Below are positions 2,971-62,311 of a stretch of DNA of 64,000 nt, piece by piece. The notes beneath the pieces were generated by a model, which was not told the origin of the DNA, ran no database searches, and saw only the letters and a program-made list of their open reading frames with translations. The number at the start of each line of letters is the position of its first letter. The first letter of the stretch is position 1. The DNA is from Clostridium sp. 'deep sea'. Lineage in GTDB: Bacteria > Bacillota > UBA994 > PWPR01. Both the position numbers and the translations under genes were made by a program. The stretch lies in assembly GCF_014931565.1 (NCBI RefSeq), contig NZ_CP063353.1:2170001-2234000 (forward strand), in the 5' to 3' direction.

Positions 2971-4274
2971 TAGCTATTTGTGGTAAGCTCCTTATAATTA
3001 AGCACAGTTTCTTTTCCTAACTTCATGTTTTTAAGTTTCACACTGTTATTTTTTTGTTCTTCTTCTCCTATTAACAAAACCTTATCTATATTAAGTTTAT
3101 TTGCATAGTTTAGTTTCTTTTTTAGCGAGGCATCTTCAAAATACATAGTTGTAGCAATACCTTTACTTTGCAAAAAGCACATTACTTGACATGAATATTT
3201 AAATGTATCTCCTATTGGTACAATTAAATACTCAGTTTTGTTATCTACACAATAATTATCTATAAATCCTATTTCTTTTAATACATAAAATAAGCGTGTT
3301 AAACCAATGGAAATACCCACCCCTGGCAGCACATTTTTTGTGTAATTTTGGGCTAAATTATCGTACCTGCCACCTGAGCAAACTGAGCCATATTGTTCAT
3401 TACCTATAAGAGAGGTTTCAAAAACAGTACCAGTATAGTAGTTTAAGCCCCTAATAATTTTTAGGTTTATTTCATACTCACTATTATCTACAGCAAATAA
3501 TTCTAAAGCCACAACAACTTGTTTAAGCTCATTAACTCCTGTCTTAAACTCTTCGTTATTAACCTCTAAATTCTGCAAACTAGTTATTACCTCTATAGCA
3601 GAACCCTTTATCTCTAACACTTTATTAATAAAACTAACTTTATCTACGCCAATTAGTTGTATTAGTTTCTCATTAAAACTGGCTTTATCCATTTTATCGT
3701 ATTTATCTATTAAACTCATTACCTCGACAATATTAGTAATATTAAGCTCTTTAAATAAACCTTTAAGTATTTTTCTGTTACTAACTAAAAAACAATAGTT
3801 TTGCAAGCCAATTGCCTTAAATGCCTTAGACACTAAACTTATTACCCAAGCATCATTATTGATATTTAATTTATTTTTAGCAATAACATCAACATCAAGC
3901 TGATAAAACTCTCTATACCGACCACGCTGATTCCGCTCCCCCCTATATACCTTACCTATTTGATAACGCTTAAAAGGAAAAGTGAGTTTATCAATATATT
4001 GGGCTACATATCTAGCAAAAGGTACCGTTAAATCAAATCTCATTAACAGGTCGTTTTTGCCTTTAGTAAACCTATACACCTGTTTTTCGGTTTCTCCGCC
4101 CTCTTTAGCCAATATAACCTCTGACTTCTCTAATATGGGGGTATCAATAGCTAAACAGCCATTACTCTCATATACATTAACTATTTTACTGACAATATCA
4201 TTAAACTTAACTTGTTCATTAGGCATTAACTCCATAAAACCCGCTAAAATACTAGGCTTAATAATTTTACTCAT
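2970..4274 (-). CDS. hisS: histidyl-tRNA synthetase
   Basis: Class II aminoacyl-tRNA synthetase that charges tRNA-His. Motif 2 is visible as GKVYRGERNQRGRYREFYQ, the histidine-A-type motif as RGLNYYTGTVFE, motif 3 as PGVGISIGLTRL, followed by an anticodon-binding C-terminal domain (about residues 335-434). I chose the ATG at 4274 because AAGGAG lies 8 nt before it; a GTG three codons upstream overlaps that ribosome site. The 434-residue length is normal. It stands behind a 208-nt leader with a leader-peptide ORF and a terminator (see separate entries), so expression is probably attenuated in response to histidyl-tRNA supply. Confidence 0.95.
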   Translation of the reverse strand: MSKIIKPSILAGFMELMPNEQVKFNDIVSKIVNVYESNGCLAIDTPILEKSEVILAKEGGETEKQVYRFTKGKNDLLMRFDLTVPFARYVAQYIDKLTFPFKRYQIGKVYRGERNQRGRYREFYQLDVDVIAKNKLNINNDAWVISLVSKAFKAIGLQNYCFLVSNRKILKGLFKELNITNIVEVMSLIDKYDKMDKASFNEKLIQLIGVDKVSFINKVLEIKGSAIEVITSLQNLEVNNEEFKTGVNELKQVVVALELFAVDNSEYEINLKIIRGLNYYTGTVFETSLIGNEQYGSVCSGGRYDNLAQNYTKNVLPGVGISIGLTRLFYVLKEIGFIDNYCVDNKTEYLIVPIGDTFKYSCQVMCFLQSKGIATTMYFEDASLKKKLNYANKLNIDKVLLIGEEEQKNNSVKLKNMKLGKETVLNYKELTTNS

Positions 4275-4303
4275 GTAATTCACTCCTTACCTATTTTTTA
4301 TGC

Positions 4304-4337
4304 AAAAAACCATGTAGGCATATACCCCACATGGTTT
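4304..4337 (-). terminator. attenuator hairpin in the hisS leader
   Basis: On the minus strand AAACCATGT and ACATGGTTT form a 9-bp stem followed directly by a T run, about 30 nt before the hisS start. It lies between the hisS promoter and the gene, so it can only act as a leader terminator. Part of the loop (GGGGTATATGCC) is GC-rich enough to extend the stem. Confidence 0.75.
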
Positions 4338-4368
4338 AATAAATTATGTTTTCACACATTTATTTTAC

Positions 4369-4425
4369 CTAGAGATACAAGCCTGTGAAATAGACCTGTA
4401 CCTGCATAGCAGAACAAGTCTCTAG
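4369..4425 (-). promoter_or_regulatory. structured segment of the hisS leader
   Basis: On the minus strand CTAGAGA (4425-4419) and TCTCTAG (4375-4369) form a perfect 7-bp helix enclosing a small hairpin CTGC-TAT-GCAG. The 5' arm starts at the stop codon of the leader ORF, so a ribosome stalled on the His codons just upstream would cover it. That is the geometry of a ribosome-controlled switch. The alternative pairing that would prevent the terminator was not resolved by eye. Confidence 0.55.
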
Positions 4426-4463
4426 ATATGGCAATGATAAAAACTACTAAAAAATGTGTACAT
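4422..4463 (-). CDS. leader peptide of hisS with His-Cys-His near the end
   Basis: The 13-codon ORF encodes MYTFFSSFYHCHI and is preceded by AAAGGAG with 7-nt spacing. Codons 10 and 12 are both CAT (His), near the stop. The ORF begins about 18 nt after the predicted transcription start and is followed by a helix and a terminator before hisS. It fits a leader peptide that senses charged tRNA-His; only two His codons is fewer than the enterobacterial his leader. Confidence 0.65.
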   Translation of the reverse strand: MYTFFSSFYHCHI

Positions 4464-4488
4464 AATAATTCTCCTTTAGTTTAAAAAT

Positions 4489-4517
4489 ATTATACATTTT
4501 TAATTAAGCCTAAGCAA
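4489..4517 (-). promoter_or_regulatory. hisS promoter
   Basis: On the minus strand TTGCTT (4517-4512) and a perfect TATAAT (4494-4489) are separated by exactly 17 nt. The predicted start lies near 4482, just before the leader-peptide ribosome site. Confidence 0.75.
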
Positions 4518-4534
4518 ATATTTTTAACTAAGCT

Positions 4535-5512
4535 TTAAATATCTTTTAAACCTATCCACTGCTTTAAATCCTCTATAACAGCTCTGCCTTGTTGATTAAC
4601 ATTAATCTGTTCTAAAGTTTTAATTAGCTGTTCTTTCTTAAACAGCACAGTTTTAAAAGAATTAGCTATAGTTAAAATTAAATTGCTATCCATAGCATCC
4701 GAATACACTTTACACTCTGTTATATATCCATTTACTAAGGTAAAACCAATACTTAGTTCACCCCAAGGGAACTTATTATAATAACTTATATCAAAATTAG
4801 GACTCTCACCATAACGCCATTGCCAAGATGAATATTTTTGATAAAGCTTATCCATATCATCAGTAAAGGTTTGCACTGCAATGTACTCATCACTTTCTCC
4901 ATAGGTTGTAGTAAAACTCTTAAGCAAACTCTCTGCCATATTTTCAATATTAATTTGATTATTTAAGCTTACCAAGTTTACAACCCTAGACTTCACTGAA
5001 TCAATACCCTTAGATGCTATTTTTTCTTTAGACACCTGTAAATACTTTACCATTTTACTAAAGTTAGTATTAATTAAAAGAGTTCCATGATGATATGCTG
5101 CATTGTCATCAAAATAAAAAGCATTGCCAGAAAACTTTTTGCCATTAGCAATAAGATCATTTCTCCCCGAAAATTCTGCTTTTACTGCTAAGCTTTGCAC
5201 TGCATCTAAAATAACTTGCAGCTGTTTTGTAAGGTTGTATAATTTTTTATCCATAATAAAGGTAAAGTTTAAATTACCTTTATCATGATAAACAGCCCCG
5301 CCACCAGATAATCTACGTGCCAGTTTTCCGCCTTCTTTTTCAAATTGTTTACAGCTACATTCTTTCCAGGGATTTTGATTTCTACCGATTACTATTGTAT
5401 TATCATTTTGCCATAAATATAGAATTATTTGATTATGCTTAACCTGCTTTAATAAAAACTCTTCTAATGCTAAGTTATACCAGGGGTCAAACGACTGTGA
5501 CCGAATTATCAT
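4535..5512 (-). CDS. lplA: lipoate-protein ligase A family protein
   Basis: Attaches lipoate to lysines of lipoyl domains using ATP. The N terminus FDPWYNLALEEFLL and the motif RRLSGGGAVYHDKGNLNFTF (about residues 68-87) are the hallmarks of LplA, and a small C-terminal accessory domain follows. A GTG at 5551 would extend it by 13 residues into the previous gene. I prefer the ATG at 5512 because family members begin close to this point, although no strong ribosome site is visible and translation may be coupled to the upstream stop 13 nt away. The neighbour is a lipoyl-domain dehydrogenase, the obvious substrate. Confidence 0.9.
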   Translation of the reverse strand: MIIRSQSFDPWYNLALEEFLLKQVKHNQIILYLWQNDNTIVIGRNQNPWKECSCKQFEKEGGKLARRLSGGGAVYHDKGNLNFTFIMDKKLYNLTKQLQVILDAVQSLAVKAEFSGRNDLIANGKKFSGNAFYFDDNAAYHHGTLLINTNFSKMVKYLQVSKEKIASKGIDSVKSRVVNLVSLNNQINIENMAESLLKSFTTTYGESDEYIAVQTFTDDMDKLYQKYSSWQWRYGESPNFDISYYNKFPWGELSIGFTLVNGYITECKVYSDAMDSNLILTIANSFKTVLFKKEQLIKTLEQINVNQQGRAVIEDLKQWIGLKDI

Positions 5513-5525
5513 AGAGTTTATTAAA

Positions 5526-7502
5526 CTATTGTGCAAAGTGTAGAGCACCACCCTCTACAGCTAATGCGGCTTCATGTACTGCCTCGGCTGTGGTAGGGTG
5601 CGCATGAATGGTTTCTGTAATTTGTTTAGCTGTTAATCCATTTTTTATAGCTAATGTTAACTCTGCAATTAAATCTGTGGCATGTGGACCTATTATTGCG
5701 CTACCAATAATTTTACCTGTAGACTTTTCTTTAATTATTTTCACAAAACCTCTAGCTTCACCTAAAGTTAAGGCCTTACCGTTTGCATTAAAAGGAAACT
5801 TTCCTACTTCTATTTCTATTTTACTTGCTGCTGCTGTTTTTTCACTTACCCCAACTACAGCAATTTCAGGCATTGTAAAGATTGCACTAGGTACACTGCC
5901 ATAATCCATAGTTGAGCTAACACCCATAATATTATTTACTGCTACAATTCCTTGATGTGAGGCAACATGTGCTAGCTGAAGCTTATTGGTTACATCTCCA
6001 ATAGCATAAATATTATCAACATTAGTTTGCATTTTTTCATTTACCTTAATGCCACGCTTTTTATCATTTAATTCTATTCCTAATTTATTTATGCCTAAAC
6101 CATCTATATAAGGCTTTCTGCCAACAGAGATCAACACTTTATCGGCTGAAATAAATTTATATTCATCGTCTTTAACAAACTTTACAATACACCCAGTATC
6201 TTCACTTTTAATAATTTCCTCAACTTTAGAACCCGTAAAAATATTAATACCTTTTTCTTTGGCACTAGTAGTTATTTCTTTGCAAATATCATCATCTAAT
6301 ACAGACAATACATTGTCCATATATTCAATAACAGTAACATCTACCCCAAAACTCTTAAAGATAAAGGCAAACTCCATGCCAATTACGCCGCCACCAATTA
6401 TTGTCATTTTTTGAGGTAAGTCTGTTAGCTCTAATGCCTGTTCACTAAATATTAAATTACCTCTTTTGGCACAAGGCACAGGAAGTTCAGCTGTTTTAGA
6501 TCCAGTGGAAATGATAATATGTTTAGCTTTAATAATAGTTTCGGAATTACCATTTTTAACGATTATAGTTTTAGCATCCTTAATAGTACCCACACCAGTT
6601 ACTAAAGTTACCTTTTTCTTCTGTAATAAATAATGAATACCAGTCACCAATTTATTTACAATATTATTTTTTCTTGTTAGGACTTTTTTCATATCAAAGT
6701 TAATATTTTCTGCAAAACAGCCAAACTCTTCTGCCTCTTTTAAGTTATTTAATACTTCCGCAGAACGAACTAAAGCTTTGGTTGGAATACAGCCTCTGTT
6801 TAAACATGTTCCACCAACCTTATCCATTTCTACCAAAACTACTTTGGCACCTAATTTAGCAGCATGAAGGGCTGCCACATAACCTCCAGGGCCTCCACCA
6901 ATAATAGCGATATCGCTTTCAATATCTTGCTGTTTCTTAGGTTTAATTAATATGTTATATCCACCTATATTTATTTTTGGGGCACTTTTCTCTGGCTGAT
7001 TATTGCTAACCCTTAAAGTAGCTAGTTTTTCACCTTTTTTAGCAGTCACTGCTTCTTCAATTAATATCTCTTGCAAAACACCACTAAATTGTGCCTTGAT
7101 AGGAGAGCTACCTTTTTTTCCTTCTATATCAAATAGTACATCGCCTGCTTTAACAGTATCTCCAGCTTTTTTACGAACCCTAACAATTTTAGCATCTGGG
7201 GCATTGTTAGGTATATTATTAAGCTTAATATCAACTATTTTATTTTCATTAGTATCACTTTTATTTTGGTCTTTAGAGATAACTGCTAAAACAGCATTAA
7301 CTTTAGCAACATCCCCTTCACTAACCATCACTTTTTCAACTTTACCATTAAAATCAGACTTAATTGGTGTATTTGCTTTTTTTCCTTCTAATTCAAAAAG
7401 CAAGTCGCCTTTCTTAACAGTATCACCTTTATGTTTGTGTACCCTAATAACCTTTGCTTCATTAACATTATTGGGTAACTTATTTAGTTTAATGTCAACC
7501 AT
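5526..7502 (-). CDS. lpdA: dihydrolipoamide dehydrogenase with two N-terminal lipoyl domains
   Basis: FAD- and NAD-dependent enzyme that reoxidises dihydrolipoyl groups. Two tandem lipoyl domains occupy about residues 1-75 and 88-165; their hairpin lysines are in LEGKKANTP and IEGKKGSSP. The E3 part starts near residue 195 with IIGGGPGGYVAALHAAKLGA, then the redox disulfide GGTCLNRGCIPTKA, a second nucleotide-binding GGGVIGMEF, and the C-terminal active-site HAHPTTAEAVHE. Usual E3 proteins are about 460 residues; this one is 658 because of the fused domains. No E1 or E2 genes lie nearby. The operon partners are an AhpD-like protein and a lipoate ligase. AAAGGAG precedes the ATG. Confidence 0.93.
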   Translation of the reverse strand: MVDIKLNKLPNNVNEAKVIRVHKHKGDTVKKGDLLFELEGKKANTPIKSDFNGKVEKVMVSEGDVAKVNAVLAVISKDQNKSDTNENKIVDIKLNNIPNNAPDAKIVRVRKKAGDTVKAGDVLFDIEGKKGSSPIKAQFSGVLQEILIEEAVTAKKGEKLATLRVSNNQPEKSAPKINIGGYNILIKPKKQQDIESDIAIIGGGPGGYVAALHAAKLGAKVVLVEMDKVGGTCLNRGCIPTKALVRSAEVLNNLKEAEEFGCFAENINFDMKKVLTRKNNIVNKLVTGIHYLLQKKKVTLVTGVGTIKDAKTIIVKNGNSETIIKAKHIIISTGSKTAELPVPCAKRGNLIFSEQALELTDLPQKMTIIGGGVIGMEFAFIFKSFGVDVTVIEYMDNVLSVLDDDICKEITTSAKEKGINIFTGSKVEEIIKSEDTGCIVKFVKDDEYKFISADKVLISVGRKPYIDGLGINKLGIELNDKKRGIKVNEKMQTNVDNIYAIGDVTNKLQLAHVASHQGIVAVNNIMGVSSTMDYGSVPSAIFTMPEIAVVGVSEKTAAASKIEIEVGKFPFNANGKALTLGEARGFVKIIKEKSTGKIIGSAIIGPHATDLIAELTLAIKNGLTAKQITETIHAHPTTAEAVHEAALAVEGGALHFAQ

Positions 7503-7531
7503 TTTTGCTTTTCTCCTTTATATATATATAA

Positions 7532-7553
7532 AAGGCAGAGTTTCCTCTGCCTT
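7532..7553. terminator. hairpin between the AhpD-like gene and lpdA
   Basis: GGCAGAG-TTTC-CTCTGCC forms a 7-bp stem with a tetraloop, followed by T tracts on both strands. It lies inside the presumed operon, so it may reduce, rather than stop, transcription into lpdA. Confidence 0.65.
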
Positions 7554-7565
7554 TTTTGTTGATAC

Positions 7566-7919
7566 TTACTGAAAATCAGGGGCAAATTCAGCAATAGAAT
7601 CTTTAAGTAATGTTACAGTGTATGCCATAGAAGGGCCACCACCAAATGCAACAGCTACCATTGCTGCTTCCATAATTTCTTCAGGTGTTGCTCCTGCCTC
7701 TAAAGCCTTAAATACATGATAAACTATGCAGTATTCGCAACGACTAAAAGCTCCTATAGCTACGCTTATAAGCTCTTTAGTTTTAACATCCATGGCGCCT
7801 GGGGCATATGCTGCACCCAATAAATTCATAAAGGCATTTACCTGTTCACCATTGGTATTACCTACTTCTTGTAAACCTCCAACAAAATCATTCAACATTG
7901 TTCTTGGATTTTTAGCCAT
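7566..7919 (-). CDS. AhpD-like carboxymuconolactone decarboxylase family protein
   Basis: The 117-residue protein has the CMD fold signature KTKELISVAIGAFSRCEYCI with a CxxC pair (CEYC) and a nearby His (IVYHV). In AhpD proteins this pair is a redox centre that can be recharged by lipoyl domains. AAAAGGAG precedes the ATG and a promoter lies at 7956-7984. It heads the group with the lipoyl-E3 fusion and lipoate ligase, which suggests a lipoyl-driven thiol or peroxide reduction role. The true substrate cannot be read from the sequence. Confidence 0.88.
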   Translation of the reverse strand: MAKNPRTMLNDFVGGLQEVGNTNGEQVNAFMNLLGAAYAPGAMDVKTKELISVAIGAFSRCEYCIVYHVFKALEAGATPEEIMEAAMVAVAFGGGPSMAYTVTLLKDSIAEFAPDFQ

Positions 7920-7955
7920 GATATAATTCTCCTTTTAAAGATTTTCTACGCCTCA

Positions 7956-7984
7956 AGTATAGACCAGGTATTTTCATACTACAA
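7956..7984 (-). promoter_or_regulatory. promoter of the AhpD-like/lpdA/lplA group
   Basis: On the minus strand TTGTAG (7984-7979) and TATACT (7961-7956) are separated by 17 nt, about 35 nt before the ATG. Confidence 0.55.
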
Positions 7985-8485
7985 CATGTAACTATTCCCA
8001 TTTAATACTCTAAAATAACATTTAACAGATAATATCTAACTCCTATGAAGCATATTCTTATATTTAGTATAAAAAAATATATTTTTGCATAGCAAATCAT
8101 ATTATCATTTAATATCACTAATAAAATATAAACTCAATTATCTGTAAATACTAAATGAGCATAATAAAGCGTATCTCTTTTATATTCTTACCAACATAAT
8201 ACAAAATAGTCGAGTAAAATACTATTAATTAACTTTTATTTAAATTAAACGATTTACAAGGAAAAATTGTTACAAAGTATTTAAAAAAAACCAAAAACTT
8301 AAAGTTTGTGGTTTTTTGTTTTATACACTTTTTAGGTAACTCATAAATTGCAATTTAAATTAATTTTTTATCTACTTGTAAAAAACTTTTTTAAATATCC
8401 ACAACGGAATCACACAGAGGTGATTGCCTACTAACAAACATTTTCACTTAATGTGATGTAACAACAATCAGTCTTTTTTATTAAT
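7985..8485. other. intergenic stretch without a recognisable gene
   Basis: About 500 bp of AT-rich DNA with no credible ORF. The only structure seen is a terminator-like hairpin near 8286-8317 (AAAACCA ... TGGTTTT with an inner AAACTT/AAGTTT pairing). Confidence 0.5.
8286..8317. terminator. terminator-like hairpin downstream of the racemase gene
   Basis: AAAACCA and TGGTTTT pair around an inner AAACTT/AAGTTT stem, with T runs on both strands. It lies about 170 nt past the stop of the minus-strand racemase. Confidence 0.55.
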
Positions 8486-9634
8486 TTATTTTAAGTAAAC
8501 TCGACAAGGTCTAGTAGAGGTCATTGTTCCTAAAATATGACTCACTGATACACCACATTTTTGAGCTATATCCATTACAGTAATCTCTTGCTCACCTTGC
8601 TTACCCATTAACCAAACCTCATCACCAATATTAACATTTTCAACATTTGTTATATCAGCAAAAGATTGATCCATATTTATGGCCACAATGGGGCACTTCT
8701 TTCCATTAATAATAACACAGGGATTTTTCTCAGCATTTTTAGTAATTATTTGCTTAAGATAACCACATCCTAAACCAAAACTCATTACAGCTACCTTTGA
8801 ACGTTTTTTAGGCTGAAAGAACTTAGAATAACTTGCTGAGCCACCCTTTTCAACATCTCTTACGTTTGTAACAAAGGCCTTCCAGGAAACAGCCGGCTCT
8901 AAAGCAAGGCGATTATATTCACCAGGAGAAGTATCATAACCCCAAATGAGAGCGGCAGGTCTTACAAGGTTATAATGGGTTTCCGGAACTCTCACTGTTG
9001 CACCCGAATTAGCCATATGTAAATACTTAAGAGTTAAACCATTTGCCCGCATTTGCTCAACAGCTAAGTTAAACTCTTTAACCTGCTTATAATTAAACTC
9101 ATTACTTGCTTCATCGGGAGAAGCTAGCTGAGTTAAGGCACCTTCTATTTCAATACCTGGCAAGGTTTTTACATAATCAATAAACTCTTGTAACTCTTCT
9201 CCAACATGTACTCCAATGCGTCGCATTCCTGTATCTACTTTTATATGGCATTTTGTAACTTTGTTTTGCCTAACAGATTCATTAGCTATTAAAGATGTAA
9301 GTTTTTTATCATAAATAGTGGCAACAATATCATTTTCAACTAAAGCTTTTACAGCAGTATTACGAACCCCTCCGAATGTCATAATAAAACAGTTTATGCC
9401 AGCTGCCCGTAACTCTAAGGCCTCAGAAAGTGCCGCTGTAGCAAACTTTTTAACACCACACTCTTTATACATATAAACACAAGGTTCAACCAAACCATGA
9501 CCATAACCAAATGATTTTGAGGTAACCATTAACTCTACATTTGGCCCAATATGTGCCCTAATTTTATCAATATTGCTTTTTACCTTTTTAAGGTCAACAT
9601 AAATAATGGAGTTACTAACTTCTGGTGTTATCAT
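8486..9634 (-). CDS. alanine racemase-like PLP enzyme
   Basis: Fold-type III PLP racemase. The cofactor lysine lies in SKSFGYGHG, the same spacing as the usual KADAYGHG. HIKVDTGMRRIGV and the active-site Tyr of SYSKFF are present. The normally conserved GYADGYPR segment reads GLGCGYLKQ instead, so substrate range may differ from a standard Alr; an amino-acid racemase of other specificity is possible. Length (382) is typical. AGGGGG precedes the ATG. It is transcribed alone. Confidence 0.82.
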   Translation of the reverse strand: MITPEVSNSIIYVDLKKVKSNIDKIRAHIGPNVELMVTSKSFGYGHGLVEPCVYMYKECGVKKFATAALSEALELRAAGINCFIMTFGGVRNTAVKALVENDIVATIYDKKLTSLIANESVRQNKVTKCHIKVDTGMRRIGVHVGEELQEFIDYVKTLPGIEIEGALTQLASPDEASNEFNYKQVKEFNLAVEQMRANGLTLKYLHMANSGATVRVPETHYNLVRPAALIWGYDTSPGEYNRLALEPAVSWKAFVTNVRDVEKGGSASYSKFFQPKKRSKVAVMSFGLGCGYLKQIITKNAEKNPCVIINGKKCPIVAINMDQSFADITNVENVNIGDEVWLMGKQGEQEITVMDIAQKCGVSVSHILGTMTSTRPCRVYLK

Positions 9635-9764
9635 TACTTTTCCCCCTAGCTATAATGTTTTTATATTTAATAATTATATTGTTAAATATAAAGCAATTAA
9701 ATATATCTGTAAAGCTATTTTAAAAGGGGATTGATTGCACCTTGTAACATTGGCAGTAATTATA

Positions 9765-10595
9765 CTAAAGCTTTTTTAATATAAAGTCTAAGTCTTGAAC
9801 ATCATTCTCCATATTGCTAAATAAATCTCCTTTTTTTGCAAGCCTTTCTTTTATGCTAAAAAAATTAAAATCATTAATATCTATGCCCTGCTTTAACTCC
9901 TGCCATGTAATAGGGGTAGCAATACGGGCATTTTCAACTGCTCTAGTAGAGTAAGGGGTGATAATGGTTTTACCTTTCCACATTTGCAAATAATCAAAAT
10001 AGAGCTTATTACCCCTGTTTTTTATTAATCGCTCTATAGATATTTTAGTAGGATAACTTTGCGCAAAATACTTAGCAAAAAACTCATTTATTTTACGAGC
10101 ATTTTCATAGCTATATTTACAACCAACTGGTATATAAATTTGTAAACCTGTTGAGCCAGAGGTTTTAACATAACTTTTTATGTTTAATTTTGTTAGGGTT
10201 TCATAAATTAATAAAGCAACCTCCATAACCTGCTCAAAAGTTTGATTTTTAGAAGGGTCTAAATCAAACACTAAACTAGTGGGGTTATTAGCATTATTTA
10301 AGGTATTAAAACAAGTATGAAACTCTAAAGCGGCTTGGTTTGCCATCCATAATAAAATATCTGCACTATTTAAACTTTGCTCTACCCAACTAGGGGCATA
10401 ATCTGGCAAATTTTTTTGATAAAAACTCTTTTTAGCTACTCCATCGGGATACCGTATAACTGTTAATTTGCGATTTTGAGCGTATTTTAAAATATAAGGA
10501 GACAGCTCATACATTAAATTAAGATAATCTATTTTTTTAATACCTAACTTAGGCCATAACAGCTTATTAGGGTTACTTATTTTAAAATTATTCAT
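9765..10595 (-). CDS. LigD-type polymerase/primase domain protein (NHEJ)
   Basis: Stand-alone LigD polymerase domain that fills and adds nucleotides at double-strand breaks. NPNKLLWPKLGIKKIDYL at the N terminus, VIRYPDGVAKKSFYQKN and the metal-binding FDLDPS are family marks. Its ATG overlaps the stop of the ligase gene by 4 nt (ATGA), so the two are translationally coupled. In many bacteria this domain and the ligase are one polypeptide; here they are separate genes. Confidence 0.92.
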   Translation of the reverse strand: MNNFKISNPNKLLWPKLGIKKIDYLNLMYELSPYILKYAQNRKLTVIRYPDGVAKKSFYQKNLPDYAPSWVEQSLNSADILLWMANQAALEFHTCFNTLNNANNPTSLVFDLDPSKNQTFEQVMEVALLIYETLTKLNIKSYVKTSGSTGLQIYIPVGCKYSYENARKINEFFAKYFAQSYPTKISIERLIKNRGNKLYFDYLQMWKGKTIITPYSTRAVENARIATPITWQELKQGIDINDFNFFSIKERLAKKGDLFSNMENDVQDLDFILKKL

Positions 10596-18010: not shown

Positions 18011-18074
18011 TATCTTTTTTTACAACTATTGCATAATACCACCCCCAATCTGCGTTTATTTAGCAATGCCACTA

Positions 18075-18141
18075 CCACATAGCCTTTCAAATTGACCAAT
18101 TATGAAATAATTAAACAATTTACACCAAATTATGATATAAT
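18075..18141 (+). promoter_or_regulatory. AgrA-type promoter upstream of a small RNA (site A)
   Basis: Half sites CCACATA (18075-18081) and CCAATTA (18096-18102) lie 21 bp apart, and a perfect TATAAT is at 18136-18141. The second half site and the -10 are in exactly the same register as in the two copies beside agr (33167-33233 and 33400-33466). No good -35 is present, as expected for an activator-dependent promoter. Confidence 0.65.
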
Positions 18142-18146
18142 TTTTT

Positions 18147-18243
18147 TAATATTGAAATTATACTAAGCAATTGACTACATACTACACTTTTTTTCATTTC
18201 TCCTTTTTCCTTAATTTGAGACCTCTTTAGGTCTCTTTTTTTT
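18147..18243 (+). ncRNA. candidate agr-regulated small RNA A
   Basis: A transcript starting after the TATAAT at 18136-18141 would end about 95 nt later at a perfect terminator, GAGACCT-CTTT-AGGTCTC plus eight T (18218-18243). No ORF with a ribosome site is present. It carries a pyrimidine-rich stretch CATTTCTCCTTTTTCC (18195-18210) complementary to Shine-Dalgarno sequences. The layout resembles small RNA D at 33083-33158. Confidence 0.6.
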
Positions 18244-31927: not shown

Positions 31928-32006
31928 TCTTTGCTTGTTATTAAGTTACAGCCCTCTCATTGCTGTGTATGCTTATTATATGCTCGTACCTGGGATTTGG
32001 GTAGTG

Positions 32007-32135
32007 TTAATCACAAGTGATTAAATGCTTCTTTTTCACCGTAAGGTGAATAACACACCCATAGGGTATATCACTACTAAAGGTAAAACCACGCACAAAA
32101 GTGCATATCACTCAAACAGTTGCCCTTACCCCTTG
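32007..32135. repeat. hairpin-array repeat, copy 1
   Basis: A run of short hairpins: TTAATCAC-AA-GTGATTAA, TTCACC-GTA-AGGTGAA and GCAC-AAAA-GTGC, with ATATCACT between some of them, ending GTTGCCCTTACCCCTTGAA. Copy 2 at 32292-32426 keeps the same order with scattered changes. No ORF. Confidence 0.7.
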
Positions 32136-32291
32136 AAGATAATAACATAGAGTGGATTTTATCAATTATAAGTATTAATATGTCCTTTAATAAGTATTTT
32201 TTAGAGAGATTATATAGGTTTATGATGCGTTAATTGAAGGGAGGAAAGTGTTATAGTGCTTCGCACTGTAATATTCATACATGAGTGAGAT

Positions 32292-32426
32292 TAATCACAA
32301 GTGATTAAGTGATATGATATGCTTCTCTCTCACCGTAAGGTGAATATGACACCTGCAGGGTATATCACTACCAAAGGTAATACCACGCACGATAGTGCAT
32401 ATCCAAAGGTTGCCCTTACCCCTTGA
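32292..32426. repeat. hairpin-array repeat, copy 2
   Basis: TAATCAC-AA-GTGATTA, TCACC-GTA-AGGTGA and GCAC-GATA-GTGC, with GTGATAT on the left and ATATCAC on the right able to pair with each other, and the same end GTTGCCCTTACCCCTTGAA. Preceded by AGTGC-TTC-GCACT at 32255-32267. Confidence 0.7.
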
Positions 32427-32455
32427 AAATTAGGCATTTAAATACTACAAAGCAA

Positions 32456-32606
32456 ATGAAGTGTCACCCTGTGACATGAAGTATCTTCGATATGAAGTGC
32501 CTTACGGCATGAAGTGAAGCTTACCACAAATGTGCGAATGCACACTTCATTAGCGCAGCGACTTCATGTGTGAAAACACACTTCACTTACCTAAGGTAAA
32601 CTTCAT
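32456..32606. repeat. symmetrical hairpin array with ATGAAGT/ACTTCAT spacers
   Basis: Four ATGAAGT units (32456, 32476, 32492, 32509) are mirrored by four ACTTCAT-type units (32544, 32561, 32580 as ACTTCAC, 32600). Between units sit different tiny hairpins: GTCAC-CCT-GTGAC, TATC-TTC-GATA, TGCC-TTA-CGGCA, TGTGC-GAAT-GCACA, GTGTG-AAAA-CACAC, TTACC-TAA-GGTAA. The left and right units can pair to give a long helix with side hairpins. No coding potential. Confidence 0.75.
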
Positions 32607-33082: not shown

Positions 33083-33158
33083 CAGTAAAGGAACTCATTC
33101 TTATTAGCTCATTCTCCTTTCTTCCTATTTAGCCGGCGCTTAGCTGGCTGTTTTTTTT
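33083..33158 (+). ncRNA. candidate small RNA D with pyrimidine-rich segment
   Basis: A terminator AGCCGGC-GCTTA-GCTGGCT plus eight T (33131-33158) has no gene in front of it. Just before it lies CATTCTCCTTTCTTCC (33110-33125), matching CATTTCTCCTTTTTCC of small RNA A, and both are followed by ATTT, a hairpin, eight T and GC. CTCATTCT occurs twice. The likely start is after the extended -10 at 33069-33077. Confidence 0.5.
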
Positions 33159-33166
33159 GCCATTTA

Positions 33167-33233
33167 CCGATTAAGTCTTTAAAACGACCAATTACAAAAT
33201 AATTTACACAAACGGTCAAAAATATATTATAGT
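33167..33233 (+). promoter_or_regulatory. AgrA-type promoter of small RNA B (site B)
   Basis: Half sites CCGATTA (33167-33173) and CCAATTA (33188-33194) are 21 bp apart, and TATAGT lies at 33228-33233, the same distance as in sites A and C. Both B and C share ACCGATTA, then AG-CTTT, then GACCAATTA. Confidence 0.72.
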
Positions 33234-33239
33234 ATAGCT

Positions 33240-33316
33240 AGAAAGACTCTGATTCGCTCTCACTGCCTTTAGTGATTGGCTGGCCAAATCTCAAATTTGA
33301 ATCAGAGTCTGCTTGT
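33240..33316 (+). ncRNA. candidate agr-regulated small RNA B
   Basis: AGACTCTGATTC (33244-33255) and GAATCAGAGTCT (33299-33310) form a perfect 12-bp closing stem that starts only ~10 nt after the -10 box, so nearly the whole transcript is one structure. Inside are TCACT/AGTGA and TTGG/CCAA hairpins. A TTGTTTT tract follows. No ORF. Confidence 0.6.
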
Positions 33317-33399
33317 TTTAAAAATTAAGATTCACTCTACTAATAGAACCTTATAGTTTAAATTATTATTCGTTATGTACAATAATTCGACATATGATA

Positions 33400-33466
33400 C
33401 CGATTAGGCTTTTATAATGACCAATTAGCAATTATTTATGTATTTACAGTGTTTTTAATATAAAAT
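33400..33466 (+). promoter_or_regulatory. AgrA-type promoter of agrBD (site C)
   Basis: Half sites CCGATTA (33400-33406) and CCAATTA (33421-33427), 21 bp apart, with TAAAAT at 33461-33466 in the same register as sites A and B. The long 5' leader to agrB is about 110 nt. Confidence 0.7.
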
Positions 33467-33584
33467 GAATATAGATTTAATGCACAAATGTGTTAGGAAA
33501 AAAATTTTTATTATAGATTTTAAATGTGTTTTAATACTTCATGGTATACTTAATTTATAGAAAATTAAGTAAAGGATGAAACCA

Positions 33585-34187
33585 ATGAAGTTGAGAGAAA
33601 ACCTTTGTAAGTGGGTTATAGCACAAATTAAAACACAAAATACCGATTTAAGTGAAACTAGGGTAGCTGAATTAGAGTATGGTTTTCATTGTTTTTATAC
33701 TTTTATAACCAAAATCTCTTTCATCATTATACTCTCGATTATACTTAAAATGACTCCAGAGATACTTACGGTTATTATTACCTTTTTGTTTGTAAGATCT
33801 TTTGCTGGAGGCATACACGCAGAATCGTCTTTAGCCTGTTTGGTAACTACTACAGCTATATATTTTGGAGTATCTTTTGCTGCTATACATATCCACATAC
33901 CATTTATGATACTTATCAGTATGGCTGTATTTGCAATAGTTTTAATCGCTATTTTTGCACCAGCCGATGTTGCAAATAAGCCAATTCGGGGAATAAAACA
34001 TAAGCGTAAGTTAAAAACACTATCTGTTATATTTGCAATTGTGTTTACTACAATAGCATTTTTTATGAGACCTGTTTTACAGAATGCAATTTTACTATCT
34101 ATTTTTGTAGAAAGCATAATGGTTACCCCTTTGGCTTATAAGCTAACTAATACCTTAGGAGGAGAACATTATGAAGAAATTGTTTAA
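33585..34187 (+). CDS. agrB: AgrB-type accessory peptidase for autoinducing peptide
   Basis: 200-residue membrane protein that cuts and cyclises the AgrD precursor. VRSFAGGIHAESSLACL carries the catalytic His and Cys with the family's spacing (H, then C seven residues later). Five to six hydrophobic segments follow. The ATG at 33585 has AAAGGA 8 nt before it; an ATG at 33576 overlaps that site. The agrD start lies inside its last codons. Confidence 0.93.
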   Translation: MKLRENLCKWVIAQIKTQNTDLSETRVAELEYGFHCFYTFITKISFIIILSIILKMTPEILTVIITFLFVRSFAGGIHAESSLACLVTTTAIYFGVSFAAIHIHIPFMILISMAVFAIVLIAIFAPADVANKPIRGIKHKRKLKTLSVIFAIVFTTIAFFMRPVLQNAILLSIFVESIMVTPLAYKLTNTLGGEHYEEIV

Positions 34188-34314
34188 AAAATCATTAATT
34201 ATATCAGCTTTAACAGCACTTTGTGTGCTTTTTGCTGCCTCTTCTAGTGCAGCTACACTAATTTCGGTTTGGGATCAACCAAAGATTCCTAAATCACTAA
34301 TTATTGAAGAATAG
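34171..34314 (+). CDS. agrD: AgrD-like cyclic peptide precursor lacking the usual Cys
   Basis: 47 residues, too short to be listed by most ORF finders. The N terminus MKKLFKKSLIISALTALC is amphipathic or hydrophobic, and the C terminus WDQPKIPKSLIIEE matches the charged, proline-containing AgrD tail (xQPxxPxxL). The segment between, SSSAATLISVW, has no Cys; the only Cys (residue 18) is far upstream. A Ser- or Thr-based lactone is the alternative ring. TAGGAGG precedes the ATG and the gene overlaps agrB by 17 nt. SSSAA could also be a signal-peptidase site. Confidence 0.8.
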   Translation: MKKLFKKSLIISALTALCVLFAASSSAATLISVWDQPKIPKSLIIEE

Positions 34315-34342: not shown

Positions 34343-34364
34343 AAGTTGGAGCTTGCTCCAACTT
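34343..34364. terminator. terminator between agrD and agrC
   Basis: AAGTTGGAGC and GCTCCAACTT form a 10-bp stem with a 2-nt loop between the convergent transcripts; pyrimidine-rich tail on the plus strand. Confidence 0.75.
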
Positions 34365-35652
34365 ACTTTCTTTTAAAGCCAATACACTGCATAAATTTAT
34401 TATTTTTAACTACTGTATTCCACTCTACTGGCATGTAATTCTCTAACATTGAAGCCAAACTACTTAACCCAGTTCCCCTACCTATTCCTTTTGTTGAATA
34501 TCCATCTTTATCAATAGCCGCTACCTCTAGGTTATTATTGCTAATGCTATTGGTGATTATTAACTCAAAATAATCATTATATGATAAAAATATTGCCCCA
34601 ACCTCTGGCTCGCTACATTGCTTAGCAGCTTCTATAGCATTATCTAATAATATACCTACAATCCTTATAAAATCTGTGCCCTTAATAGGCATTTTATTAA
34701 TAATATGTGGAGCCTCAATAAAAAAGCTAATTTTATGGTTATTAGCATAAAACATTTTTGCTGCCAATAAACTAATTAAGCTTGGCTCACGAATATTGAC
34801 CATTGCCTCAATCTCACTTGAATACTGGGTAATTTTAGATCCTTGAAGTTCTTGTAATCTTTCTTTTAAATCCTGCCACTCTTCTTTTTCGGCTAAGCCA
34901 TATAAACTTATTAATACATTATTAAAATCGTGTTTAAACTGTTTTATGTCATTTGAGAGTTTCGACATTGTATTTAAATAATAATGCAACTGGCTATTTT
35001 TGTATTCTTTTGCCTTCACCAAGTACTGAGAATATGCAGAAAATGAAACAACTATTAAAAAAGTTAATGGTATTAACCATATATACTTTTCTATTTGAGC
35101 TTTATCTATTTGATACATTGAAATCATATAAATGTTTGAAGCTAATAATATATAAGTAATAAAAAGATATTTGTTCCACGATGTTAAGTTTTCTGCTCTC
35201 TTAACTCCACCATATTTATTAATTAAATACCGTGCTATTCTTAGAGCTAAATAAATTATCCCAACTAAACTTAGGTTTGATAATAATTTAAATATGATAA
35301 CATTTGTTTTATTAACTGATAAGTTAAGACCTGTTACAATATAGTAAATGATATTGTCTACTAGAATACTTGGAATAAACTGCACAAGAGTACAAAAAAA
35401 CAGTATAGAAAATAGCGCTTTATAAAAAATAATATTACTAACAATTAAATATGATATAAATATTAATGGTATTCTCAATAAAGTAAATTGATTAGTAGAT
35501 ATAGTAATAACAATACTAATTAACCATAGAAGAAAAACTGAGTACCAATATGTAGATTTTTTAATCACAATCCCTGTTATAACATTTATAATTTTAAAAT
35601 ATAAAATTGCTAGTATACAAGAAAATAATGCTTCTATAACTCTGACTGCCAT
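34363..35652 (-). CDS. agrC: AgrC-type sensor histidine kinase
   Basis: 429 residues. About six transmembrane helices (residues 1-205) form the peptide sensor. The dimerisation helix carries KQFKHDFNNVLISL with the phospho-acceptor His near residue 235, followed by ATP-binding GILLDNAIEAAKQ (N box) and STKGIGRGTGLSSL (G box). This is the HPK10 type that pairs with LytTR regulators. GAGGTG inside agrA precedes the ATG, and the genes overlap by 19 nt. Confidence 0.93.
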   Translation of the reverse strand: MAVRVIEALFSCILAILYFKIINVITGIVIKKSTYWYSVFLLWLISIVITISTNQFTLLRIPLIFISYLIVSNIIFYKALFSILFFCTLVQFIPSILVDNIIYYIVTGLNLSVNKTNVIIFKLLSNLSLVGIIYLALRIARYLINKYGGVKRAENLTSWNKYLFITYILLASNIYMISMYQIDKAQIEKYIWLIPLTFLIVVSFSAYSQYLVKAKEYKNSQLHYYLNTMSKLSNDIKQFKHDFNNVLISLYGLAEKEEWQDLKERLQELQGSKITQYSSEIEAMVNIREPSLISLLAAKMFYANNHKISFFIEAPHIINKMPIKGTDFIRIVGILLDNAIEAAKQCSEPEVGAIFLSYNDYFELIITNSISNNNLEVAAIDKDGYSTKGIGRGTGLSSLASMLENYMPVEWNTVVKNNKFMQCIGFKRK

Positions 35653-36368
35653 CGCTTCAACACCTCATTCATTCTTCTCCTAGCTACGGGAAACTCTGAT
35701 CCATTTCTGCAATATATTATTTTTTTATCTCTATCTATATTTAAAACATGGTCGAGGTTGACTATAGCACTTTCGTGACATCTTACGATGTTAGGGTAAT
35801 TCTCTAGTTGCTCCATTACGGTTTTTAGTGTTTTAAAATAACGAAACACACCCTGTGTAGTATAGGTGGAATACGTTTTGCCATCTTTTTTTATACCAAT
35901 AAATTCACTCACTGCTATGGAAATGTTGCGACTTAAACTCGTAAATTTAAGTCTTTTAGGTCTATGTCCATCTTCATTCCATTGTTGGTAGTCATGAACT
36001 AAACGCTGAAATACTGTGTGTAAATCTTCTTTCATGCTCTCGGTATGTGATTTAATGACAAAATCAAAGGCCTTATACTTAAAGGCGTCTCTCATATGCT
36101 TTTGCATTATAGTTACAAATATTATGTAAGCATTGGGGTCATCTGTTCTAATTTTATGGGCTAAATCAAGCCCTGTGTCTTGTTGATTTAAATCTATATC
36201 TAGTAAATATACTGTTGCCTCACCTTTTTTACGGTGTATTATATCGCTTGCTAAAAATGCTTTTATTTCGGTTGTTTCGGAGGTAGCTAATACCACCTTG
36301 GCTGGATATTCATGAAGAGATACCAACTCTATAACCACTGCGTACAAATTTCGACAAATGTTTATCAA
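35634..36368 (-). CDS. agrA: AgrA-type LytTR response regulator
   Basis: 244 residues. The receiver domain has VYLLDIDLNQQDTGLDLA (phospho-Asp about residue 56) and FDFVIKSH with the conserved Lys. The LytTR DNA-binding domain (about 145-240) shows the typical CHESAIVNLDHVLNIDR and PVARRRMNEV. The start appears to be TTG with AGGAG 7-8 nt upstream. It is the best candidate to bind the 21-bp-spaced repeats at sites A, B and C. Confidence 0.92.
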   Translation of the reverse strand: MINICRNLYAVVIELVSLHEYPAKVVLATSETTEIKAFLASDIIHRKKGEATVYLLDIDLNQQDTGLDLAHKIRTDDPNAYIIFVTIMQKHMRDAFKYKAFDFVIKSHTESMKEDLHTVFQRLVHDYQQWNEDGHRPKRLKFTSLSRNISIAVSEFIGIKKDGKTYSTYTTQGVFRYFKTLKTVMEQLENYPNIVRCHESAIVNLDHVLNIDRDKKIIYCRNGSEFPVARRRMNEVLKRWQSEL

Positions 36369-62029: not shown

Positions 62030-62285
62030 CACCTCCGCTCCTTTTTTCAGGAGACGAAGGTGATATCTCGTGGTACCACTCCTGTTTGTTTTCACTTCAC
62101 AGTAAAAACCTTAATAAGTGCCTAGCAGCACTTTGGCTTATTAACGAAGCCAGCCCGTTGCAGCCTACTTTTTAAATTTCGGTGCACAGCTCCAAGACCA
62201 TTTTCAGTAACCTTTGATTCACCTCTTCTCAGCAACGAGGCTCTCTGTGCAAACTTGTGTTACCTACTTTTCTTTTCATAGCTTT
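62030..62285 (-). promoter_or_regulatory. T-box leader (Met) of metG
   Basis: The conserved T-box sequence GGAGTGGTACCACG lies at about 62069-62082, followed by a terminator hairpin (CACCT ... AGGTG and CTCCT/AGGAG) with T run at 62030-62072. Upstream, the stem I region shows AGAGA and GAATC, and a specifier-like ATG (62201-62199) in TGAAAATGG, fitting Met. Uncharged tRNA-Met would favour readthrough. Confidence 0.9.
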
Positions 62286-62311
62286 TTATTAGTATATATT
62301 TTATTTTGATT

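Follow-up and report, generated by a model that had tools for sequence, protein, structure and literature searches.

LytTR-type direct repeats at weak promoters mark a predicted agr regulon with a conserved structured RNA in a Bacillota lineage

The agr locus and its relatives

The stretch of DNA analyzed here, referred to as the window, spans 64,000 nucleotides (C1:2170001-2234000) of a genome that consists of a single 3,831,732-base contig (G000) and harbors an agr locus with the following genes:

33576..34187, forward strand: agrB, AgrB family (Pfam PF04647, E 1.3e-33)
34171..34314, forward strand: agrD, 47 amino acids (MKKLFKKSLIISALTALCVLFAASSSAATLISVWDQPKIPKSLIIEE)
34363..35652, reverse strand: agrC, sensor kinase (HATPase_c_5), convergent to agrBD
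35634..36368, reverse strand: agrA, response regulator with a LytTR domain

The AgrB membrane peptidase, AgrC-type kinase and LytTR response regulator expected of an agr system are all encoded, while AgrD scores 17.6 bits against TIGR04223, just below the cut-off of 19, and carries the downstream motif WDQPKIP. The same convergent layout is found in a second species of the genus, the MAG Bacillota bacterium PL25a_bin.78 (G001), where the locus lies on contig JANQLZ010000033.1 and the identities are 56% for AgrB, 48% for AgrC and 62% for AgrA. The predicted AgrD ring in the window has no cysteine; it reads AATLISV-WDQPKIP against AACSWFI-WEQPRIP in the second species, with threonine at the cysteine position. 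A more distant relative (G002, a genome 72% complete) keeps agrCA in the same neighborhood, and on its contig C147 (1734-3772) agrC and agrA adjoin the same RNA methyltransferase gene, without agrBD in place. A scan of genome contigs with AgrC returned no matches, and a scan with an AgrA alignment returned the same-genus record and distant relatives only.

The receiver of AgrA in G000 is about nine codons shorter at the N-terminus than that of G001, in frame, and is incomplete as a phospho-receiver: the phospho-acceptor region LLDIDL is kept and the acidic pair is absent, with ICRN standing where both G001 and G002 have ICEDD. Because the orthologs have the pair, we regard its absence as a loss in G000 and as no ground to place the locus elsewhere. 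Judged by this sequence, the strain itself might have an inactive agr system, or one that does not respond to phosphorylation, despite the maintained sites described below. A second agr-like cluster (positions 3165-10261 of genome C1:12500-30000) consists of a large secreted protein flanked by two LytTR regulator/kinase pairs, with an AgrB on the opposite strand.

Repeat sites in the window

Three repeat sites, each with a -10 hexamer, are present in the window:

33166..33195, forward strand: site S1, direct repeats ACCGATTAA (33166-33174) and ACCAATTAC (33187-33195), N12 between them, 21-bp period
33203..33233, forward strand: S1 core promoter, TTTACA at 33203, 19-nt spacer, TATAGT at 33228-33233
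33399..33428, forward strand: site S2, direct repeats ACCGATTAG-N12-ACCAATTAG, upstream of agrBD
33461..33466, forward strand: S2 -10 hexamer TAAAAT
18074..18103, forward strand: site S3, direct repeats ACCACATAG-N12-ACCAATTAT
18136..18141, forward strand: S3 -10 hexamer TATAAT

Their shared architecture is an ACCRNWTA half site (starting at 33166, 33399 and 18074) followed 21 bp on by ACCAATTA, with the -10 hexamer (TATAGT at S1, TAAAAT at S2, TATAAT at S3) offset by 42 nt from the G of GACCAATTA. A preliminary description of this DNA had reported the three sites, their 21-bp half-site spacing and the common distance to the -10, and all of these are present as it gave them; its half-site motif CCRATTA, however, is wrong for the first half of S3, which reads ACCACATA. 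In the window the joint pattern of repeat and -10 has three matches, while 100 dinucleotide shuffles gave none. S1 and S2 share a strand, with S1 233 bp upstream; S1 also offers a second promoter option, TTTACA-16-TATTAT, with TATTAT at 33225. The half site GACCAGTT of several sites resembles CCAGTT, the core of the VirR box.

Distribution of the sites in the genome and in related genomes

Statements about the whole genome rest on pattern and profile searches. A loose form of the repeat pattern gave five matches on the forward strand and none on the reverse, and the reversed-pattern control gave none. When up to three mismatches were allowed and the -10 was fixed, four further sites were recovered among the chance matches that a 3.83-Mb genome yields, all of them intergenic; these are listed with the genes behind them:

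S4, genome 3213540, forward strand: zero mismatches, TANNNT at offset 42; ahead of an RNA and guaA
S5, genome 2698856, forward strand: one mismatch, TANNNT at offset 42; ahead of a gene for a 159-aa secreted protein
S6, genome 1356137, reverse strand: from the three-mismatch list, TANNNT at offset 42; ahead of a gene for a 113-aa membrane protein
S7, genome 1184808, forward strand: from the three-mismatch list, TANNNT at offset 42; ahead of a gene for a 182-aa protein

S6 and S7 were chosen from the three-mismatch list because of their intergenic position and because orthologs appear in the second species. A site profile was then built from ten sites, seven from G000 and three from G001, and its search of G000 returned exactly seven sites, scoring between 40.8 and 51.9 bits; the best remaining match had 16.3 bits (150 first-look candidates scored per genome). 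Since the profile had been trained on these same sites, the scoring was repeated for each one with that site and its ortholog held out; the scores were 28.6 to 56.7 bits, and no other place in 263 kb exceeded 12.6 bits. The whole-genome motif search that the preliminary description had proposed thus ends with seven sites, the four additional ones intergenic, and a clear gap in score; with at least two of these four heading conserved protein genes, the regulon exceeds three and the "compact regulon" of that description is therefore not borne out.

The 21-bp period is found in S1-S7 and likewise in the sites of the second species, and the -10 stands at offset 42 in all seven sites of G000 and in sites G1 and G3 of G001, at 43 in G4 and at 40 in G2. 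Because the pattern itself demands TANNNT at offset 42, the offset is independent evidence for few sites only, namely S1-S3, S4 (first found without the -10 requirement) and the G001 site found by the profile (43). The promoters had been described as having no good -35, which is true only in part because TTTACA stands 19 nt before the -10 at S1 and at three other sites, S4, S5 and G3 (the G001 ortholog of S4); at the remaining sites the best -35 match is at most 4/6.

Orthologous sites in G001 were identified for three of the four distant sites (S4, S6 and S7), with diverged flanks. The geometry, rarity, intergenic position and cross-species conservation of the sites are all computed results. 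The profile search also found an additional G001 site outside the training set (C105:52064, E 6e-9), before a gene for a secreted protein. S1 and S2 have no possible comparison with G001 because the contig there breaks off 88 nt before the AgrB match. The profile search of G002, itself 72% complete, gave no site above 15.6 bits (150 candidates scored), and no agrB match was found in this genome.

Some matches were set aside. Two on C155 of G001 were excluded from the count as apparent copies of a transposase-linked sequence (CAAAATGACCAGTTATAA, twice), although one of them carries TATAGT at offset 42. A repeat site at genome 1543616 has good repeats and was left out, as it has no -10 at the fixed distance and is absent from the profile search. 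This marginal site lies upstream of a short ORF (locus positions 5842-6066) without a family match, whose peptide ends in CFWIV, an ending that by its sequence is reminiscent of a peptide-signal core.

Predicted RNAs and protein targets

Three RNAs are predicted behind the sites:

33240..33320, forward strand: RNA B, the predicted S1 transcript, a branched fold closed by GACTCTGATTC/GAATCAGAGTC (z -2.4)
18148..18243, forward strand: RNA A, the predicted S3 transcript, mostly unstructured, with pyrimidine-rich TTTCATTTCTCCTTTTTCC and then the terminator GAGACCTCTTTAGGTCTC-T8
genome 3213609-3213784: S4 RNA, between the S4 site and guaA, about 165 nt (-50.9 kcal/mol, z -7.5)

Sites S3 and S4 each have a predicted non-coding RNA directly behind them. 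The preliminary description had counted two RNAs, of which RNA A stands, with its clear terminator, whereas RNA B, without one, is uncertain, and a better-supported third RNA lies outside the window. An Rfam search of the S1, S3 and S4 RNAs gave no family match. The homolog searches with RNA A and RNA B in G001 and G002 returned only short A+T- or pyrimidine-rich stretches, and a target search with the pyrimidine stretch of RNA A gave no excess that holds up.

The fold of the S4 RNA was matched by no shuffle, and its ortholog in G001 (-56.1 kcal/mol, z -6.7) has the same layout: a closing stem (CAGACGGA...), an AGCUAA/UUAGCU-hairpin arm and a two-hairpin arm whose last hairpin carries UCUAGCUCC. 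Five pairs are kept through two-sided changes between the species in the automatic alignment; a hand alignment made by eye gives three compensated pairs in P2 and five in P3a, the latter count depending on the register. Because two sequences are few, this compensatory evidence is good but not final. A search with a model of the RNA found nothing else in the class, and a simple target search with its loop gave no excess that holds up and nothing consistent between the species. The S4 RNA appears to be a new RNA. We put forward only tentatively the fuller proposal that it represents a new family, the main RNA output of agr in this lineage, of an origin independent of RNAIII, VR-RNA and SpoZ; its conserved UCUAGCUCC loop would either pair with the conserved GAGCUA element or capture Shine-Dalgarno sequences. 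This we rate somewhat below even odds.

The proteins behind S5, S6 and S7 belong to no confident family, although those of S6 and S7 have, on reading the loci, orthologs behind the orthologous sites of G001. Behind S5, inspection by eye shows a good ribosome site (S5 locus about 8925-8980), then a possible eight-codon leader peptide and then the secreted-protein gene.

Two of the RNAs could instead be leaders of the genes that follow them, readings that are both compatible with activation by AgrA. Because no intrinsic terminator occurs between S1 and agrB, RNA B is possibly the 5' part of an agrBD leader; S1 and S2, on one strand and a short distance apart, would then be tandem agrBD promoters and RNA B a structured 5' leader instead of a separate RNA. 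We hold this to be slightly short of an even bet, as the stable closed fold right after the predicted start, in a layout resembling that of the S4 RNA, could mark a discrete RNA. For the S4 RNA the corresponding proposal, a cis-acting, riboswitch-like guaA leader and not a trans-acting RNA, draws on its position directly upstream of guaA in both species and on its lack of a classical terminator, but it is unlikely, since in both species guaA has a consensus-like promoter of its own between the RNA and the start codon (TTGACT-17-TATAAT in G000; by eye) and no riboswitch in Rfam matches the RNA.

The regulator and its proposed mode of action

Going by sequence, the 21-bp double site is most likely the switch by which the agr regulator turns on signal genes, other genes and structured RNAs. 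We give a probability of about 0.85 to the reading that the repeats are putative binding sites of the adjacent AgrA, through which it would activate the promoters at S1-S7. The mechanism draws its main support from the geometry of the sites because this agrees with published LytTR systems. The repeats of LytTR regulators are mostly 12 bp apart and shortly upstream of the -35 (PMC6193735), activation of spoZ by RgaR, which activates agrB1D1 as well, requires G-51 and G-72, two bases 21 bp apart (PMC10602386), and in S. aureus the promoters under AgrA activation have 18- and 20-nt spacers (PMC4227749). Here, with the start assumed to lie 12 nt past the first base of the -10, each half site has its fourth base close to -50 or -71, and the promoters show what is typical of activation by LytTR proteins, two direct repeats of about 9 bp, about 12 bp apart, in a fixed position at a weak promoter with suboptimal spacing. 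The earlier claim of LytTR-type direct repeats at weak promoters near complete agrBD and agrCA is thereby upheld, the geometry equaling that in the LytTR reports.

In the proposed mechanism, two AgrA molecules would occupy the two 9-bp half sites, with 12 bp between them, on one face of the helix, immediately before a weak -35 whose spacer is over-long, and would help RNA polymerase onto the -10 at its fixed distance. Through S2, and perhaps S1, AgrA would raise agrBD and with it the peptide signal, a positive feedback that takes in the signal genes and leaves out the convergent agrCA pair. RNAs would be produced from S3 and the distant S4, and small genes would be driven from S5 (a secreted protein), S6 (a membrane protein) and S7 (a protein without known function). 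We infer AgrA as the binder, activation as the outcome of binding, a response to cell density and a function for the RNAs. Counted against AgrA are the agreement of the half sites with the general LytTR consensus at only 5 to 8 of 9 positions, the four other LytTR proteins of G000, the receiver without its acidic pair, and G002, with no agrB match and no site above 15.6 bits in a genome only 72% complete.

The choice of regulator is narrowed by gene content. G000 encodes five LytTR proteins, two of them within the second agr-like cluster (at 16-22 kb), which has an AgrB, and one of these, or an ABC-LytTR fusion, might bind the sites while AgrA is a mere neighbor. This is improbable, given that two of the seven sites lie directly at agrBD and that orthologous sites occur in G001, whose LytTR proteins are just AgrA and an unrelated one. 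The latter, a 184-aa protein beside a small membrane protein, does not resemble G000's ABC-LytTR fusion, its kinase-linked regulator or its second agr-like cluster; because it has no evident ortholog among the five, AgrA is the only evident shared candidate regulator, as far as gene content can indicate. That the motif is a coincidence, or a repeated element without a regulatory role, deserves hardly any credence: the A+T-rich genome does yield many matches at three mismatches, but none occurred in the shuffles, the score gap is clear both in the profile search and in the leave-one-out scores, and conservation in the second species amid diverged flanks contradicts it.

Comparison with known systems

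The most likely mechanism, AgrA-activated transcription from LytTR direct repeats, is of a kind already known from clostridia (VirR, RgaR); what is new is the S4 RNA and how far the regulon reaches in this lineage. RgaR of Clostridioides difficile (RgaS-RgaR, agrB1D1, SpoZ) likewise has repeats with key positions 21 bp apart, few sites per genome, and agrBD, a small RNA and small proteins as targets, whereas RgaS and RgaR are encoded away from agrBD (PMC10602386) and here the kinase and regulator adjoin it. Short of a systematic comparison, neither the RNAs nor the protein targets showed any relation to the C. difficile ones. The VirR boxes of Clostridium perfringens (pfoA, VR-RNA, VirT, VirU) are similarly two imperfect direct repeats fixed just upstream of the -35, with small regulatory RNAs among their targets (PMC2688746, PMC2838878). 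However, VirR is reported not to activate agrB1D1 (PMC10602386), while agrBD here has a site, and no toxin gene was seen behind the sites of G000.

The likeness to staphylococcal P2/P3 drawn in the preliminary description extends to the type of regulator, the repeats and an RNA output, but the clostridial VirR and RgaR are closer. AgrA of S. aureus acts at P2/P3 through tandem repeats and an over-long -35/-10 spacer, yet there one promoter drives the whole of agrBDCA (PMC4227749), whereas in the window agrCA runs convergently to agrBD with no site in front of it, and the RNAs match neither RNAIII nor any other Rfam family. The LytTR Regulatory Systems of Streptococcus mutans also have direct repeats, 12 bp apart and upstream of the -35, and positive feedback, but the regulators pair with membrane inhibitors and not, as here, with an agr peptide and kinase (PMC6193735). 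The analysis provides a promoter code and a predicted regulon for the agr system of an uncharacterized Bacillota lineage, extends the VirR/RgaR-like layout of repeats, fixed distance and RNA outputs beyond well-studied pathogens, and adds a structured RNA absent from Rfam. It also bears on agr autoregulation outside staphylococci, with a site at the signal genes and none at the receptor genes.

Other features of the window

An intrinsic terminator at 33130-33150, within 33090-33158 on the forward strand, closely precedes S1 and ends the pyrimidine-rich CTCATTCTCCTTTCTTCCT. This stretch strongly resembles TTTCATTTCTCCTTTTTCC of RNA A, has no repeat site in front of it and is possibly a sister RNA of RNA A with anti-Shine-Dalgarno character. 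Dense short repeats (cacaagtgatta, ccaaaggtaa and tgaagtg units) fill 32001-32600, between genes and a tRNA cluster, and a T-box leader (112.7 bits) lies at 62047-62288 on the reverse strand.
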